From the NCBI GenBank assembly GCA_026005055.1, contig BPKI01000001.1, positions 806,001-870,000 on the forward strand: 64,000 nt of DNA, read 5' to 3'. The stretch is from Lysobacterales bacterium. GTDB lineage: Bacteria > Pseudomonadota > Gammaproteobacteria > Xanthomonadales > BPKI01. Under the pieces are notes generated by a model. It did no database searches. It saw only the letters and a list, made by a program, of their open reading frames with translations, and was not told the origin of the DNA. Position numbers and translations under genes: made by a program. Below are positions 30,450 through 38,670 of the stretch, in pieces (the stretch's first letter is position 1; each line of letters opens with the position of its first letter).

Positions 30450-31583
30450 ATGACCCTGACCTCCTGCCTTCATCTTCTGCTGAGCGCTGTTCTCGCTGCC
30501 GATCCTGGCGCAAGCGAGGCGGCCAAGATTTACCCCTATCCCGATGGCGTCATCCAGAACATCTGGCACTTCAATCCGGAGCCTGGCTGGTGGGTGCTCA
30601 AGGACCGTCCGGGCACCGGTTTCGCGCTCGAGCGGCAGGGCAGCGACACGGTATCGGACACCTATTTCCTGGCGATGTTCACCTACGATCCGGATGGGCG
30701 TCCGACCTTCTACACGATGACCGGGCGTTACGACTATGCGACCAAGCGTCTCACGGGCACCTTCGATCGCGCAGAGGGGGGGGAGGTGTTCGGCTCGGGG
30801 GTGTACCGTCCGCCGACGGTGACGGTCGAAGCGGGCGGGCGTGCCGAGTTCGAGTTCATCAATGAGAAGGAGGGCATCTGGCACAGCCCGCGCGGGCCCA
30901 TCCCGATCGAGCGTTTCGATTTTGCCTTTGGCCGGAGAACGGCGAAGACCTTTCTCGGGCGCTGGCTGATCATCAACGTCCAGAAAAGCCCGATCGGCAT
31001 TCGCACCTACATCGTGGACTTCACGGAGATCGATTCCGATAACGGAGGCGCGCCGCCCGAAGACCCGGGTATCGCAATGGGCCGCATCGCGCCCGTTTTC
31101 CACGGTGCCCTGCCGGGCGCGCAGCAGGCGCTGTTCGCTGGATGGAACACAAAAGAGATTTTCTACGGCGAGAACAATCCGTATCGTGTCTTCGATTACG
31201 CCATCGAAATCTTCGACCCCATGGCAGAAGCTGAAGGTTATGGGATTCATGACTGTAGGCTGCATCGCGGCCTCCATCTCGCGGTCGGAATGCTTAGGAT
31301 GGTTCGTCAGAACAGCAACTTTTATGTTCCCGGCAACTGCATCGCAATCCGCTTGATGACCCTGGAGGAGCTTCGGGTCTATGGGCAGCCGCCGAGTCCG
31401 CAGGGAATGCTCGCCGGTTTGGGCAAGCTGCTGGCGGCGGGCCGCGAGCTTGCCTCGCTGCCGGTGTCGGGGTCTCCTCTGCCGGAAGAGGTCCGCGAGG
31501 TAAGCCCACAGGAGATCGCCGCACGCGAGCGCATGATCGCCAAAGCCATCGCTTGGGCGCAGGAGCGGGGCTTCTGGAAGTGA
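30450..31583 (+). CDS. exported protein with WY/GxG-type beta domain
   Basis: A 377-residue protein with a short signal peptide (LTSCLHLLLSAVLAADPG). The first 120 residues contain HFNPEPGWWVLKDRPGTGFA, YFLAMFTYDPDGRPTFYTMT and GRYDYATKRLTGT. This pattern of tryptophans and Tyr-Asp turns resembles the domain in the secreted protein at 57132 (GAWYNPAWNGQGFFIDV, GWYAWGDNSQYLWLTAQGEF). The middle is beta-rich and the C-terminal 80 residues are helical. No catalytic motif is visible. It is convergent with the nitrilase-like gene and opens the accessory cluster. Confidence 0.6.
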   Translation: MTLTSCLHLLLSAVLAADPGASEAAKIYPYPDGVIQNIWHFNPEPGWWVLKDRPGTGFALERQGSDTVSDTYFLAMFTYDPDGRPTFYTMTGRYDYATKRLTGTFDRAEGGEVFGSGVYRPPTVTVEAGGRAEFEFINEKEGIWHSPRGPIPIERFDFAFGRRTAKTFLGRWLIINVQKSPIGIRTYIVDFTEIDSDNGGAPPEDPGIAMGRIAPVFHGALPGAQQALFAGWNTKEIFYGENNPYRVFDYAIEIFDPMAEAEGYGIHDCRLHRGLHLAVGMLRMVRQNSNFYVPGNCIAIRLMTLEELRVYGQPPSPQGMLAGLGKLLAAGRELASLPVSGSPLPEEVREVSPQEIAARERMIAKAIAWAQERGFWK

Positions 31584-31758: not shown

Positions 31759-32895
31759 TCAACGCCAACGGGATTTGTCGCGGAGGTAGCGGGCGGCGTC
31801 CTGGAGGTCGGTCGGGAGGTAGGCGCTGAACAGGTTCGGGCCGAACTGGTTCCGGTAGGCGTTGAAGACCGGCAGGTAAAGCTCCATGTGCACGACCGGC
31901 TGGCGGTGGCGCTGGCGGAACTCGGCGATCGGGATCCGGGCGGTGATGAGCTGCTCGAAAGCGCTTCTCGCTTCGGCGATCGGCCGCCCATCAGGGCCGT
32001 AGATCGCCGAGCCGCCGCTTCCCGCGTCGTCGAAGAAGCCAGGGTTGTCAGGGCTGACGGCGTTGTTGCAGATGGCCGTATAGACCTGGTTGTAGAGGCT
32101 GGTGGCGGCGATGTCCATGGGCGTGAAGCCGCCGGAGGCGGTGCGGAGGATGATCTCCGCGCCCTTGATCGCCATCGCCCGGAAAAGCTCGGGTTCGCGC
32201 TGGATCGAGCTCGTGGCGATGTTGCCGAGGGGGGTGCGGGTGATAGGGATCACGGCATCGAGCCCGTACATCTCGATGTAGCGGTCGAGCACGTCATAGA
32301 TGGTGGTGGTAAAGAGCTCGAAGCCCGGGAAAACGCCTTTGATGTTCCGCGCCTTCCAGTGCTTGTCCACGATCTCGCCCTTGTCGTTCATGATCGTGGT
32401 GATGCTGAGCACGTGATTGGGCCAATCGCGGTCGCGGGCGTAAGCGCCGAAGACGATCCAGCAGCCGTATTCGCGCGCTTTCTTGGCGATGGCCTCGGTC
32501 TCCTCGCCCGGGATCTCGATGCAGAAGCGCAGCACTTGCTCGCGCGTCCACGGCGCCCAGCCGGTCAGCGGAAACTCGTGGAAGAAGAGCAGATCCGGCC
32601 GCGGCCCGTAATAGAAGGCGTTGTCGATGAGCTCGAGCATGTGCGCGAGGTTCGCGGCGAGGTCCTTCTTCCAACGCTCGACCCGCAAGGCGCGCACCCG
32701 CGATTGCACGACGCCGAGCGTGATGCTCGGTTTGGCGAGCTCCACCACCGGATAGGTGCCATCGTCACGCATTTGGTGCGTATCAGGGCCTTTGCCCATG
32801 GCCGCGTTGGCCGTGCGCGAGGCAGGCAGCGCGCCGAGCGCACCGAGGGCGGCGAGCAAGGAGGCGGAGCGAAGGAAGTCGCGGCGATCGGTCAT
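31759..32895 (-). CDS. Tat-exported nitrilase-superfamily protein lacking the catalytic Cys
   Basis: A 378-residue carbon-nitrogen hydrolase fold. The N terminus TDRRDFLRSASLLAALGALG is a twin-arginine signal, so the protein goes folded to the periplasm, which is unusual for this superfamily. The catalytic Glu is present (FFHEFPLTG, Glu107) and a Lys aligns with the family Lys (DKHW, Lys178). The nucleophile motif, normally G-x-x-I-C-[YWD]..., reads GNIATSSIQREPELFRAMAI. By two independent alignments counting back from PEL and from KGAE, the Cys position holds Ser229. GAGGAG precedes the ATG. It stands with a methyltransferase, a TonB receptor and a flavin oxidase. Activity, if any, is unknown. 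Confidence 0.8.
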   Translation of the reverse strand: MTDRRDFLRSASLLAALGALGALPASRTANAAMGKGPDTHQMRDDGTYPVVELAKPSITLGVVQSRVRALRVERWKKDLAANLAHMLELIDNAFYYGPRPDLLFFHEFPLTGWAPWTREQVLRFCIEIPGEETEAIAKKAREYGCWIVFGAYARDRDWPNHVLSITTIMNDKGEIVDKHWKARNIKGVFPGFELFTTTIYDVLDRYIEMYGLDAVIPITRTPLGNIATSSIQREPELFRAMAIKGAEIILRTASGGFTPMDIAATSLYNQVYTAICNNAVSPDNPGFFDDAGSGGSAIYGPDGRPIAEARSAFEQLITARIPIAEFRQRHRQPVVHMELYLPVFNAYRNQFGPNLFSAYLPTDLQDAARYLRDKSRWR

Positions 32896-33007: not shown

Positions 33008-33370
33008 TCACGGGCCTGAACCCTCGGCGAGCTCCTTCATGATCCGCTCGATCGATTCGGCCGGCGTGCGTTCCCGCTGAGCGTCCTGCAGGAAAATGCG
33101 AAGCAGCCGGATTTGGAATTCGCGCAGCATGAGCTGCCGCTCGCGTTCGGCTTCGGGGGAGGGGGCGAAGCCTTCGATCGCCTCCCGCGGCAAAAGGGCG
33201 CGGGCCTCGAGCAGCCGTTCGAGCGCATCCAGGCGCTGCCGGGTGACGGCGAGCTCCATGGCAAGGGCCATGACCACGTTGAGCAGCCGTTCGACGTCGG
33301 GGTCGGAGAAGAACCACGGGCGCTTGCCCTTGGCGGGCGCGGCGCCGAGAAGGAGAGGGTCGAGATCCAT
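33008..33370 (-). CDS. hypothetical helical protein
   Basis: A 120-residue cytoplasmic protein of unknown family: FFSDPDVERLLNVVMALAME, LAVTRQRLDALERLLEARAL, and a helical Glu/Arg-rich C terminus. It resembles small coiled-coil accessory subunits but has no motif I can name. It begins 3 bp after the methyltransferase stop on the same strand, so the two are co-transcribed; the nitrilase-like gene follows 112 bp downstream. A role with the methyltransferase is inferred from this coupling only. Confidence 0.6.
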   Translation of the reverse strand: MDLDPLLLGAAPAKGKRPWFFSDPDVERLLNVVMALAMELAVTRQRLDALERLLEARALLPREAIEGFAPSPEAERERQLMLREFQIRLLRIFLQDAQRERTPAESIERIMKELAEGSGP

Positions 33371-33373
33371 CGC

Positions 33374-34585
33374 TCAGCCTCGCTTCCAGGCGCCGAAGGC
33401 GATCCACATCGGGGTTCGGCCATAGTCCTCCTGGCCTTGTCCGGCCTCGGGGAAGAGCTCGCGATCCACCAGAGCGCGGATCGTGGTCTCGAAGTAGTCC
33501 TCGCCGCGGAAGCCCGCTTCGAGTAGCATCCGCTTGAGATCGAGCTCGTGCATCACGCTCCAGAAGGGCTCGTTGTTGTAGTACGCATCCCAATCCCGCA
33601 TCGCCTGCTCGAACAGCGGCATCTCCGGCGTGTACTGAGGCTGCTCGAGATGCAGGGTGAGCCCGCCCGGGGCGAGCACCCGGCCGATTTCCTTGAGAAT
33701 CCGCGGAAGCGCCTTGGCCGAGGTCTCGTGCCAGAACATGGCGCTCGTCACCAGATCGAAATACTGATCCGGGAAAGGCAGCGCTTCCGCATTCGCTTGC
33801 ATGAAGGTGAGGTTGTGGACGCCGAGCGAGCGCGCGCGGGCATGGCCATAACGCAGCACGGGCGCGGCGGTGTCCACCGCGATCACCTCGGCCTCCGGGA
33901 AAGCCTGGGCCAGGGGAACCACGTTGTGCCCGATCGTGCATCCCACATCGAGGATCCGCCGCGGCCGGAAGTCGGGATATTCGCGCTTGAGCCAGGCGGC
34001 GACGGCGCGCCCGCCGCCGTCGGAAAAGCGCCCGAGCATGCCGGCGGTGGTCGCGAACAGCCCGCTGTCGTAGTTGGCGCCGGCCGAAACATCATCCGGC
34101 ACGAGCTCGGCGTGGTAGCCGCCCGGCATGCAGTGGATGTCCACGGCGCTTGCATAGCGCGGCTGCTCGATCGTGGGATCGAGCTTGAGGGTGGATGCGC
34201 CTTCGTTGTAGGCGTGCGCCTTGGCGATGAGTTCGGGCAGCTGCTTGAGGACCAGGGTGCGGCCGGTCTGCTGGCGCATCTCCATGGAACAGCGCCGAAG
34301 GGCGCTGAAGGTCTGCCACAGGCGCTCGCCCTTGAGCGCTTCGTGCGCCTCGCGCCGATCGCGGGGCGGGTGACCGTGTGCCTCAGTGTAGGCTGGCACC
34401 GCCCGCCGCTCGTAGGCGTCCCGGACACGCGGCAGCACCTCGCTTGCGAGCAGCGAGTTCAGATTAGCGAGAAAATCGAAGCGCGCCGTATCATCATGGC
34501 CGGCGGCGGGAAACACGCCGTGACGCCCGACATGGCGCCAACTCGGGGGTGGAGGGGGGATGCTCACCGATGAAAGATCGCTCAT
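33374..34585 (-). CDS. class I SAM-dependent methyltransferase with long N-terminal domain
   Basis: A 403-residue protein. Residues about 1-195 form an unrecognised N-terminal domain (WRHVGRHGVFPAAGHDDTAR; LVLKQLPELIAKAHAYNEGA). The C-terminal part is a Methyltransf_11/25-type Rossmann domain with RRILDVGCTIGHNVVPLAQA, the acidic loop EVIAVDTAAPVL, ANAEALPFPDQYFDLVTS and ILKEIGRVLAPGGLTLHLEQ. ATG 34585 (MSDLSS) and ATG 34600 are both in frame. It is divergent from the TonB receptor across about 230 bp. The target could be a small molecule handled by the cluster; nothing in the sequence fixes it. Confidence 0.8.
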   Translation of the reverse strand: MSDLSSVSIPPPPPSWRHVGRHGVFPAAGHDDTARFDFLANLNSLLASEVLPRVRDAYERRAVPAYTEAHGHPPRDRREAHEALKGERLWQTFSALRRCSMEMRQQTGRTLVLKQLPELIAKAHAYNEGASTLKLDPTIEQPRYASAVDIHCMPGGYHAELVPDDVSAGANYDSGLFATTAGMLGRFSDGGGRAVAAWLKREYPDFRPRRILDVGCTIGHNVVPLAQAFPEAEVIAVDTAAPVLRYGHARARSLGVHNLTFMQANAEALPFPDQYFDLVTSAMFWHETSAKALPRILKEIGRVLAPGGLTLHLEQPQYTPEMPLFEQAMRDWDAYYNNEPFWSVMHELDLKRMLLEAGFRGEDYFETTIRALVDRELFPEAGQGQEDYGRTPMWIAFGAWKRG

Positions 34586-34818
34586 ATTGCGTCGCAGCAT
34601 GACACGCTCGCGCCAACGATGCTAAAAGTCCGGACAAATGATCGCGCGGAAAGCCGGCGTGGTCAACTTGGAGAGCCTGCTCAGGACCGCATGAGAAGCC
34701 TCGTCGCCGATGGCGGGCGCCGGAGATGGCGGATACGCCATGGTGCAGGGCGTGGAGCTGCGGTCGGGCGGGAGGGGGAAAGATCCTTGAAGTCTAACGA
34801 TCGACCTGGGGAAGTCTC

Positions 34819-37224
34819 ATGAAGCCACTGAAGCCCAATTTCCTAGCAATCGCCATCGCCGTCGCGCTGATCCAAGGCGCGCCCGCGCTCGCGCAGCAGC
34901 AGCAGGGAGCGTCCGAGGAAAGCGACGCTGCCGAACTCGACAAGGTCACGGTGACCGCCCGCCGCGTTCGCGAAGCGGAGCAAGAGGTGCCGCTTTCGAT
35001 CACGGCCATCACCGAGCAGCAGATCGAGCAGCGCGGCATGTTCGACGTTCGCGACGTGGCGCGCTATTCCGCTGCTTTTTCCTTCCGCTCGGCCTTCGGC
35101 CGCATCGGTGACCGGCCGGTCATCCGCGGCATGTCGAACATCCAGGGCCAGCCGAATGCCTCCTTCTTCATCGACGGCATCTTCGTGCCGGGCTCGATCA
35201 GCGGCTACAACCTCGACAACCTCGAGCGGGTCGAGGTGATCCGCGGCCCGCAGTCGGCGCTCTTTGGTCGCCGCACCTTCTCCGGTGCGGTGAATTTCGT
35301 CACGCGCGCACCGACCGACGAGTTCCGCTCGAAAGTTTCGGTGAGCGGTGGCAACGATAACTACGGCGAGGTGCGCAGCTACATCTCCGGTCCGCTCGTC
35401 GAGGGACTGCTCGGCGCGGAGGTCAACGCCAGCCACCGCGAGATCGGGAGCCGCTTCTACAACAACCAGACCCAGCGCCGCGACGTCGGCGGGGAAAAGA
35501 CGACGACCGTGGGCGGCGTTCTCGCTTTGCGGACCGACACGGTGGACGCACGGCTGCGCTATCACTATCTGCGCAACAACGACGAGCATGCCGCGATCTT
35601 CCGCCAGGGCTCGGACCTCAACAACTGCTTCCTGCCGACCCTCACCGGCCAGAACATCGGGCCGTTCCCGGCCGCCGACAGCCGCCGCCGCGGCTACTTC
35701 TGCGGGGTGGCGCGCCTGCGCCCCGAGCGCTTCGCGATCAATACCGATCAGTTCGCGCTGGCCGGCGTTCCGGCGGGGCTGTTCCGCGAAGCCAGCCGAG
35801 CGAGTCTGTCCTTCGACTGGACGCTGCCCAACAACTGGCTGTTCAGTTCGATCAGCGCCTACAACGACACCGAGCTTTATAGCGCCATCGACCAGGACTA
35901 CAGCGGTATTCGCGGCTTCAACGGCGCCTTCGAGACCTTCGACAAGACCCGCACCTACGATCTCTCGCAGGAGTTTCGGATCACCACGGACACGGCCCGG
36001 GACGTCTATGCGATGCTCGGGGTTTACTACTACCGCGAGACGCAGGGTCCGGGGTACACGGGTTCGCTGTCGGGCTTCAACATCCCGCCGGCGAACAACC
36101 GCACCCCGCCGATCGCCAACCCCACTCGCCCGGACGACAAGACGGAGAACTACGCCCTTTTCGGGCTGCTCGAGTGGCGCTTCAGCCCGCAGTGGCGGGC
36201 GACTTTCGAGGCGCGTTATGCCGAGGACAAAATCCTGACGGCGGGCACCCGCTCGACCGTGCTCACGGTGGGTGGTCAGCCGCGCACCTTCACCCGCACT
36301 TACCGCCTCTCCGAGACCTTCACCAACTTCCTGCCGCGCGTCACGCTCTCCTATTTCCCGAGCGATGAGTGGATGTGGTACGGGCTCGTCTCCAAGGGCA
36401 ACAAGCCGGGCGGCTTCAACCTCGACGTGCAGAATCCGGTGCTCACCGAGCAGGCGCGCAATGAGCTGATCGCCGCCGGTTTCGAGAGCTTCGACGAAGA
36501 GGAGGCCTGGAACTACGAAATCGGCTTCAAGTCGGACTGGCCGGATCAGCGTTTGCGCTTCAATACGGCGCTGTTCTACATCGACTGGACGAACCAGCAG
36601 CTCACCGAAACCCGGCCGGTCTCGCGGGTGGATGGACAGCTGTTCATCACCAGCTTCACCACCAATCTGGGTAAGTCGCGGGTGCAGGGTCTTGAGTTCG
36701 AGACCATCTGGTTGCCCTGGGAAGGCTGGCGGATCAACGCCAACTACGCCTACCTCGACGCCAAGATCAAGCGCTATTTCAGCCAGGACCAGGCGGATCT
36801 CTTCGGCGATCCCTCGGCGGCGGGCAATCGCTTGCCGCGCGTGCCGCGCCATGCCTTCAACGTGGGTGCGCTCTACGAGGGCATCTTCGGTGGCGGCTGG
36901 AGCTGGTTCGCGGGCGCGGATGTGTTTTACGAGAGCTCGCGCTACGACCAGATCCACAACCTCGCGGAGACGGGAAGCTCGACGCGCTTGGATCTGCGCA
37001 TCGGTCTGAGGCCCAACGATCGGCTCTCGCTCACCGCATGGGTGCGCAACGCCACCGACGATGACACGGTGGAGGACATCCTGCGTTACGTGGATCCGGC
37101 CCGGTTCATCAACGTGCCGGGCATCCCGGGAGGTCCCGCGCGTCAGGTCACCAACGTCCGCGACTTCGCGCTCACTGCGCCCGAGCCGAGGAGTTACGGG
37201 CTCACCGTGACCTGGCAATACTGA
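34819..37224 (+). CDS. TonB-dependent outer-membrane receptor
   Basis: An 801-residue receptor with signal peptide (LAIAIAVALIQGAPALAQQQ), TonB-box-like DKVTVTARR, and a plug at about residues 50-160: VPLSITAITEQQIEQRG, RPVIRGMSNIQGQPNASFFI, DGIFVPGS, RVEVIRGPQSALFGRRTFSG. It ends as a beta-barrel in YGLTVTWQY. The sequence style (FxxWxYNxE, LGLYYYRE-like barrel strands) fits the large family common in Xanthomonas, Caulobacter and Sphingomonas that takes up oligosaccharides or other organics; the ligand is unknown. GGGGAAG lies about 7 bases upstream. A terminator follows directly, between it and the oxidase. Confidence 0.88.
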   Translation: MKPLKPNFLAIAIAVALIQGAPALAQQQQGASEESDAAELDKVTVTARRVREAEQEVPLSITAITEQQIEQRGMFDVRDVARYSAAFSFRSAFGRIGDRPVIRGMSNIQGQPNASFFIDGIFVPGSISGYNLDNLERVEVIRGPQSALFGRRTFSGAVNFVTRAPTDEFRSKVSVSGGNDNYGEVRSYISGPLVEGLLGAEVNASHREIGSRFYNNQTQRRDVGGEKTTTVGGVLALRTDTVDARLRYHYLRNNDEHAAIFRQGSDLNNCFLPTLTGQNIGPFPAADSRRRGYFCGVARLRPERFAINTDQFALAGVPAGLFREASRASLSFDWTLPNNWLFSSISAYNDTELYSAIDQDYSGIRGFNGAFETFDKTRTYDLSQEFRITTDTARDVYAMLGVYYYRETQGPGYTGSLSGFNIPPANNRTPPIANPTRPDDKTENYALFGLLEWRFSPQWRATFEARYAEDKILTAGTRSTVLTVGGQPRTFTRTYRLSETFTNFLPRVTLSYFPSDEWMWYGLVSKGNKPGGFNLDVQNPVLTEQARNELIAAGFESFDEEEAWNYEIGFKSDWPDQRLRFNTALFYIDWTNQQLTETRPVSRVDGQLFITSFTTNLGKSRVQGLEFETIWLPWEGWRINANYAYLDAKIKRYFSQDQADLFGDPSAAGNRLPRVPRHAFNVGALYEGIFGGGWSWFAGADVFYESSRYDQIHNLAETGSSTRLDLRIGLRPNDRLSLTAWVRNATDDDTVEDILRYVDPARFINVPGIPGGPARQVTNVRDFALTAPEPRSYGLTVTWQY

Positions 37225-37269: not shown

Positions 37270-38670
37270 ATGGAAGTGACCGATCCACGCCGGCGGCTTT
37301 TCCTCAAAGCCGCCGGCTTTTTCTTGCTCGCCCCCCGCGGCCTGCACGCGCGGCCTCCGCTCGAGGTCGCGGTGGTGGGTGCCGGCCTGGCCGGGCTCCA
37401 GGCGGCGCTCGATCTCGAGGCGGCGGGGGCGCGAGTGCAGCTTTTCGAGGCCGGAACTCGAGTCGGCGGACGCCTGATGACGATCGAGCGCGGGGGCTTG
37501 CGCTTCGAAGTCGGGGGAGTCGAGATCGGCGCGGGCTACCGCCGGGTGCGCGGCTTGGCCGAGCGCTTCGGCCTCTCGCTCGAGCCGCTTCCGCGCCAGG
37601 CGACGGACGCGCTGCTCGTCCTCTCGGATCGACAACTGCTCGCCTCTGCCTGGCCAGGAACCGCGGCTTTGAGCGGCAGTCCCCTCGAGCGAGTGCCGCC
37701 GCCACAGCTCCTCGCCCGCGCGCTCGCAAGCGAAGAGAGCCTACCTCGGGCGGCCGATTGGCTCGATCCGAAGCATGCGGCGTTGGATCGGCCCCTCGCC
37801 GAGCACTTGATCGAGCGCGGCATCCCCGACTGCGTGCTCTCGTGGTTGGAAGTGGGCGCCAACTACAACAGCCTGCGCCGAGTCTCGACCCTCGATGTGC
37901 TGCGGCGCGAGCGGCTGCGCCGGGAGACCGATCCCGAGGTCCTCAGGCTCGTGGGCGGGAACGGCCTTCTGCCCGAGGCGATGGCGGGGGCGCTGCGCGA
38001 GCCGGTGCGCTTCGGCCACCGCTTGCTCGAGGTGCGGCAGGAGAAAGGCCTCGTGGAGCTGATTTTCGCTCGCGGCGAAAGGGTGCGGGCCAAGCGGGCG
38101 GTGCTAGCGCTGCCGCCCTCCGCCTTGGCAGGCCTTCGTTTTTCGCCCCCGCTGCCGGCGCCGCTCGCCGAGGCGATCGCCTGGCGCGAGATGACGGCGA
38201 TCACCACGGTTCACTTCCGCCCGCTCGAGGCCTTTTGGGAGAAAGATGGTCTTCCGCCCTCGATGTGGGTGGAGGGACCTCTGGAGCGCGTCTTCGCGGT
38301 GGCAGGGGAGGGTCCAGGCGGCATCGAGCGGCTCATCGTGTGGATCAACGGCGAGGCCGCGCGGCGAGCGGATCGGCTCGAAGAGGAGGCCATCGGCCGT
38401 TGGGCAGAACTCGAGCTCGCGCGCCTGCGCCCCGCCTCGCGCGGCGCCTTGCGTCTGCTCGCGGTTCGCAGCTGGGCTCGCGATCCCTTCTTTGGCGGTG
38501 CCTACGCCGAGATCCGCGCCGGCGGCTGCGCAGCGGTGGCCGAGGCGGCGGCCACGCCCCATGGCCTCGTCCATTTCGCCGGCGAGCACACCGAGTTTAT
38601 GCACCTCGGCATGGAGGCCGCGCTCGCCTCGGGTGAACGTGCGGCCAAGGAAGTTCTCGCGGCGATGTGA
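37270..38670 (+). CDS. Tat-exported flavin amine oxidase-family protein
   Basis: A 466-residue FAD-dependent oxidoreductase. The N terminus DPRRRLFLKAAGFFLLA is a twin-arginine signal (RRxFL). The FAD-binding Rossmann motif VAVVGAGLAGLQAALDLEAA is followed by FEAGTRVGGRL. The C terminus has the flavin-closing motif VHFAGEHTEFMHLGMEAALA (amine oxidase/phytoene-desaturase type). Members oxidise primary amines or related substrates to aldehyde, ammonia and peroxide. Location in the periplasm beside a TonB receptor and a Tat-exported nitrilase-like protein fits catabolism of an imported nitrogen compound, which is inference. ATG 37270 lies just after a terminator T tract; GTG 37276 is an alternative start. 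Confidence 0.82.
   Translation: MEVTDPRRRLFLKAAGFFLLAPRGLHARPPLEVAVVGAGLAGLQAALDLEAAGARVQLFEAGTRVGGRLMTIERGGLRFEVGGVEIGAGYRRVRGLAERFGLSLEPLPRQATDALLVLSDRQLLASAWPGTAALSGSPLERVPPPQLLARALASEESLPRAADWLDPKHAALDRPLAEHLIERGIPDCVLSWLEVGANYNSLRRVSTLDVLRRERLRRETDPEVLRLVGGNGLLPEAMAGALREPVRFGHRLLEVRQEKGLVELIFARGERVRAKRAVLALPPSALAGLRFSPPLPAPLAEAIAWREMTAITTVHFRPLEAFWEKDGLPPSMWVEGPLERVFAVAGEGPGGIERLIVWINGEAARRADRLEEEAIGRWAELELARLRPASRGALRLLAVRSWARDPFFGGAYAEIRAGGCAAVAEAAATPHGLVHFAGEHTEFMHLGMEAALASGERAAKEVLAAM

Follow-up and report, generated by a model that had tools for sequence, protein, structure and literature searches.

The window analyzed here is a 64,000-nucleotide stretch (G000:C1:806001-870000) of the genome of a Lysobacterales bacterium, which consists of a single contig of 2.44 Mb. 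It carries a gene for a Tat-signal-bearing protein that resembles nitrilases and lacks their catalytic cysteine; this protein and its relatives are called family A below. The gene lies downstream of genes for a 120-aa protein and a methyltransferase on the same strand, and the methyltransferase gene is likely the first of the operon. Scanning contigs with the family A alignment gave 387 pattern matches and 339 relatives, from which 80 loci were kept. Residue counts refer to 90 distinct members, namely the window protein, 81 proteins from the 80 loci and 8 divergent ones from the order. Neighbor families are BLAST groups made in this analysis, and their counts are lower bounds because contig ends interrupt many of the stretches. 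The features of the locus are as follows.

31759-32895, minus strand: family A gene, predicted nitrilase fold without the cysteine (378 aa, ATG start; profile matches and fold model)
32800-32895, minus strand: putative Tat signal peptide, approximately residues 1-32 (DRRDFLR, hydrophobic stretch, ANA-A; TIGR01409 match, N terminus of low confidence in the model)
32575-32577, minus strand: codon of Glu107, retained triad glutamate (E in 89/90 members)
32353-32355, minus strand: codon of Lys181, retained triad lysine (K in 90/90)
32338-32340, minus strand: codon of Lys186, the residue opposite the second catalytic glutamate of aliphatic amidases (two alignments with AmiE-type sequences)
32209-32211, minus strand: codon of Ser229 (AGC), at the cysteine position when anchored on Pro235 (alignments)
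32191-32223, minus strand: NIATSSIQREP (residues 225-235, including N225 and E234), forming the shortened strand and loop of the nucleophile (alignments and model)
33008-33370, minus strand: small protein of 120 aa, no known family, 112 bases upstream of the family A gene (near 10/80 relatives)
33374-34600, minus strand: class I methyltransferase-domain protein (family near 11/80 relatives)
34819-37224, plus strand: TonB-dependent receptor, divergent neighbor (family near 37/80 relatives)
37270-38670, plus strand: flavin amine-oxidase-family protein with an RR-type N terminus (family near 22/80 relatives)

On the other side, a 377-aa open reading frame with a signal-peptide-like N terminus and no Pfam match (30450-31583, plus strand) converges with the family A gene.

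Residues 67 to 328 of the 378-aa protein match the Pfam CN_hydrolase profile (E = 7.7e-23; score 81.6 bits, cut-off 23.2). An AlphaFold2 model from 71 aligned rows reached a pLDDT of 91.1 and a pTM of 0.88 and shows the full nitrilase fold with no cysteine at the site. In the VIA comparison, with which Foldseek concurs, the model matched the aliphatic amidases 4lf0, 2plq and 2uxy at Z 30.1 and 2.5 Å over 274 to 275 aligned residues. The closest solved sequences are likewise aliphatic amidases and formamidases. The protein thus combines the alpha-beta-beta-alpha fold, as modeled, with the CN_hydrolase profile, both characteristic of the nitrilase superfamily. With the fold present and the cysteine absent, it is a homolog by fold and not a member as a cysteine hydrolase.

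The first-pass annotation had remarked on a Tat signal as unusual for this superfamily. The protein has an RR motif and scores above the cut-off of the NCBIfam Tat domain TIGR01409 (18.6 bits versus 16.7) and below that of Pfam TAT_signal (16.3 versus 22.7), a pattern consistent with a Tat substrate; cleavage would fall near residue 32. An RR motif followed by a hydrophobic stretch is present in 73 of the 90 members. The 17 without a recognizable RR signal include actinobacterial, Steroidobacteraceae and divergent members and some whose starts are truncated, and by eye the divergent members G423_C53, G558 and G400_C125 have the look of Sec or lipoprotein export.

A Cys-Glu-Lys triad is taken as the hallmark of nitrilase superfamily proteins, and a CN_hydrolase match is enough for automatic annotation to label a protein a hydrolase. 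At position 229, no family A member has cysteine: Ser in 74 and Thr in 13 give a hydroxyl residue in 87/90, and the other three, two with Gly and one with Leu, still have the glutamate and the lysine. The nucleophile motif reads IATSSIQREPEL, as first reported, and Ser229 had been placed at the cysteine position. That placement holds when the alignment is anchored on Pro235 (Ser229 being P-6) and in two of the three usable profile alignments, those against a cysteine-bearing GSYPE family and against family B (see below). It fails against the CYDW family, where Ile231 faces the cysteine, as it does when the preceding Gly is the anchor. The gap shifts in this way because the Gly224-Pro235 stretch is two residues shorter: the distance from the strand glycine to the helix proline is 11 residues in family A and at least 13 in all cysteine-bearing relatives compared, so the stretch is truly shortened. 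A fourth alignment, with the AmiE profile, was left out of the register comparison because the nucleophile stretch itself was misaligned. In the model, the strand spans residues 224 to 229 and the helix starts at 235, leaving five loop residues, as many as in C-Y-D-x-x-F-P. Ser229 is taken to be the likelier occupant of the cysteine position, though not proven, and neither register puts a cysteine there. Other cysteines were considered as the nucleophile and rejected. C125 (kept in 7/90), C145 (63/90) and C276 (18/90) all lie outside the motif, and C227, found in 19/90, is off the nucleophile position in both registers. The sequences exclude classical cysteine acyl-enzyme chemistry at this site.

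Glu107 is retained in 89 of the 90 members, as had been proposed. The lysine had been misassigned to Lys178, a position that holds K in 49, R in 37, T in 2 and S in 1 of 89 rows, 7 of them from family B. The retained lysine is instead Lys181, in a W-K-A-R-N context aligned with the R-K of amidases. W180, W158, G224 and N225 are invariant, position 234 is E or D in 90/90, and E107, K181, N184, W180, N225 and H106 are near-invariant. A second glutamate near the triad has been described in several nitrilase branches (PMC6946656, PMC6930498). In family A, the second catalytic glutamate of the amidase C-E-E-K set appears to have no counterpart; Lys186 aligns there, and the position is K in 73/90 members and Glu in none. 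As far as can be read from the alignments, what was first noted as a change of one residue is a remodeled nucleophile strand together with the loss of the second glutamate. One sphingomonad locus (L119, 3789-4916, minus strand) carries a second, divergent family A copy with Ala at the Glu107 position.

Family A differs in these respects from the enzymes it resembles. With the aliphatic amidase AmiE (2plq from Geobacillus pallidus, 2uxy; NF009802) it shares the whole fold, 22 to 23% identity and the Glu and Lys positions, but it lacks the cysteine, has Lys at the second Glu and a loop at least 2 residues shorter, and carries a Tat signal. With the formamidase AmiF (2dyu, 5g3o; NF009803) it shares the fold (Z 29), Glu and Lys, but again not the cysteine. 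The NCBIfam equivalog cut-offs of both enzymes lie far above the scores of the window protein (53.5 versus 427 for aliphatic amidase, 36.5 versus 406 for formamidase). By their entry titles, the Cys-to-Ser and Cys-to-Ala mutants 5h8l, 4hgd and 6ypa also keep the fold without the thiol and bind ligand; those are engineered single changes, whereas family A is a natural family. A search of the open-licence literature for natural cysteine-less nitrilase families found none.

Family A is under purifying selection, with a median dN/dS of 0.117 (range, 0.01 to 0.27) over the 68 usable of 71 pairs above 80% identity. The Ser229 codons are AGY in 43 members and TCN in 31, and a tree built without column 229 has 13 codon-class changes versus 6 residue changes. 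Both serine codon classes with few residue changes suggest that a hydroxyl at 229 is actively kept. By comparison, Ser230 is TCN in 78/79, and other conserved serine columns show variation of both kinds, so that a codon switch by itself is no proof of selection for the hydroxyl. To judge from its sequences, family A is a conserved enzyme homolog without an essential catalytic residue, one mark of a pseudoenzyme.

The family is widespread. Among 398 genomes of the phylum, 48 have some match at E ≤ 0.001, and one close ortholog (68%) was found besides the window's own. In the order, 11 of 299 genomes carry family A at E ≤ 6e-76. The 80 loci comprise 66 from Pseudomonadota, 5 from Acidobacteriota, 5 from Actinomycetota and 4 cyanobacterial records, which may be misbinned. 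Cultured strains of Stenotrophomonas and Sphingobium have the gene. A phage link was considered and dropped, as none of 34 viral pattern matches proved to be a relative. On plasmids, 48 records match, all below 60% identity, and most of the 30 matches listed are annotated as aliphatic amidase. In the tree, families C, D and F stand near family A on long branches, with an unsure branching order.

A second cysteine-less family, family B, forms one clade (starred in the tree) separate from family A, to which its members are related at 25 to 30% identity. Its motif is A-S-E-E-I-L-[YF]-P-E. The loop is of canonical length with Ser exactly at the cysteine, the glutamate is kept, and Arg stands at the catalytic lysine in 25 of 25 rows; the serine is partly a matter of definition because the rows were gathered by the string SEEIL. 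Family A, in contrast, has the short loop and keeps the lysine; the two are alike in their nitrilase homology, the missing catalytic cysteine, the genomes they occupy and some of their neighbors. The window's own genome carries a family B gene (C1:223614-224636; L154) approximately 0.61 Mb away, with the motif ASEEILYPE; further members are L091, L096, L105, L111, L132, L143 and L076. A structure model of family B from 7 rows (pLDDT 48) was too poor for use.

The two families occur together. At E ≤ 1e-60, family B is present in 17 of 299 genomes of the order, including 10 of the 11 with family A (Fisher p = 1.5e-13; 8 of 9 when counted by genus, p = 8e-9; both uncorrected for phylogeny or genome size). 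Among 60 genomes from a separate taxonomic family of the phylum, A is found in 5, B in 13 and both in 4 (p = 0.006, likewise uncorrected), and B lies within the same stretch at 7 of the 80 family A loci. Other homologs show further states of the site. Two (L046 and L050) have Ala at the cysteine position (MANEGSYPE) with Glu and Lys kept and are close to a cysteine-bearing relative (L044, CMEGSYPE). At two other loci (L160, 7460-8980, and L164), a cysteine-bearing homolog (CFDQAHPE; 507-aa open frame) adjoins flavin oxidase and TonB receptor genes, with DUF1838 also present at L160; both genomes carry families A and B, and this homolog is possibly an active partner.

Along with the four neighbor families counted above, DUF1330 (22), DUF1838 (21), ADH (20), CpeT (14), three glyoxalase groups (10 to 14), alpha/beta hydrolase (14), PuuE-like proteins (13) and cytochrome c (10) recur near the 80 family A loci. 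Near 10 family B loci, glyoxalase (VOC335; 6), DUF1330 (5), U243 (5), alpha/beta hydrolase (5) and PuuE-like proteins (3) were found. Around six other nitrilase-homolog loci of the order (L157, L161, L165, L169, L170 and L171), in stretches of 7 to 13 kb versus 6 to 20 kb for family B, one such family appeared, once. The 120-aa protein travels with the methyltransferase beside family A elsewhere (L107, L081 and L137) and lies near family B in L156. The PuuE-like neighbors score at best 129.9 bits with TIGR03212, below its cut-off of 424.6. Together with allantoinase-like amidohydrolase neighbors they hint at cyclic amides, which lends indirect support, at some loci, to the earlier suggestion of a receptor for a nitrile or amide. 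The FAD, cytochrome c, glyoxalase and methyltransferase neighbors give no such hint. A cyclic-imide pathway was considered as well; the open-licence literature offered nothing usable on it, and for DUF1838 it offered one paper, on an antibiotic gene cluster.

A widespread, conserved family shares the cysteine loss, and the window protein is therefore probably not an ordinary amidase but a protein repurposed within an uptake-and-breakdown pathway. We give about an even chance to the reading that family A proteins, with a nitrilase fold but no thiol, bind a ligand as part of a catabolic pathway linked to the TonB receptor. The Tat system would carry the folded protein across the inner membrane, where the old active-site pocket may bind an amide- or carboxylate-type ligand noncovalently. 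Glu107 and Lys181 would grip the polar group of the ligand, and the hydroxyl of Ser/Thr229 would act as a hydrogen-bond donor and not as a nucleophile. The protein would then have a binding or accessory role in a pathway whose other recurrent members may include oxidoreductases, DUF1838, DUF1330, CpeT-like and PuuE-like proteins and the second cysteine-less nitrilase homolog. The ligand-bound Cys-to-Ser structures (5h8l and 4hgd, by their PDB titles) indicate that loss of the thiol need not prevent such a pocket from binding. Neither finding that the first-pass annotation had named as refuting its observation turned up: the model shows a full nitrilase fold with no real cysteine at the site, and none of the 90 members has Cys at 229. 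Of the functions first suggested, a pseudoenzyme that would bind its ligand remains the likeliest. Counting against it, the near-invariant Glu and Lys and the hydroxyl in 87/90 members seem more than a mere binder needs, most neighbors are enzymes, and export is not universal, given the 17 members without an RR signal.

Possibly, though we would not favor it, A and B are co-evolved thiol-free enzymes of one unrecognized catabolic pathway, with chemistry novel for the fold through a Ser/Thr nucleophile or the Glu/Lys pair. Somewhat less probable is a noncovalent acid-base enzyme, such as a lyase, an isomerase or a direct hydrolase, in which Glu107 and Lys181 do the chemistry and residue 229 merely shapes the pocket: its six near-invariant residues hold even though 229 may be Gly or Leu, and the gene sits among enzyme genes, but this analysis turned up no enzyme of the fold that works in such a way. 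It is unlikely that Ser229 or Thr is the covalent nucleophile of an active hydrolase, with Glu107 as base and Lys181 steadying the tetrahedral state. The retained hydroxyl, Glu and Lys, the codon pattern at 229 and two of the three profile alignments speak for this version, which the first-pass annotation had also raised. It is weakened by the Gly and Leu members that keep Glu and Lys, the loop two residues short, the Lys in place of the second Glu and the alignment that gives Ile231. Nitrilase Cys-to-Ser mutants are generally inactive. That an ancestral cysteine is really there, obscured by sequencing error, or that the gene is a dying pseudogene is highly improbable: only the odd residue itself speaks for it, a base-call error is ruled out by the lack of Cys in all 90 distinct members, which come from many assemblies, and the gene has an open frame, a GC3 of 0.88 and the low median omega given above.

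On sequence and model, family A is a real, conserved, thiol-free nitrilase-fold family. With family B, it makes two natural families in which the cysteine is gone and the remaining pocket largely held. Whether a nitrilase fold can work without its thiol can be tested directly with them, one of the two being present in tractable Stenotrophomonas and Sphingobium strains, and they are good handles on a putative TonB-linked pathway.
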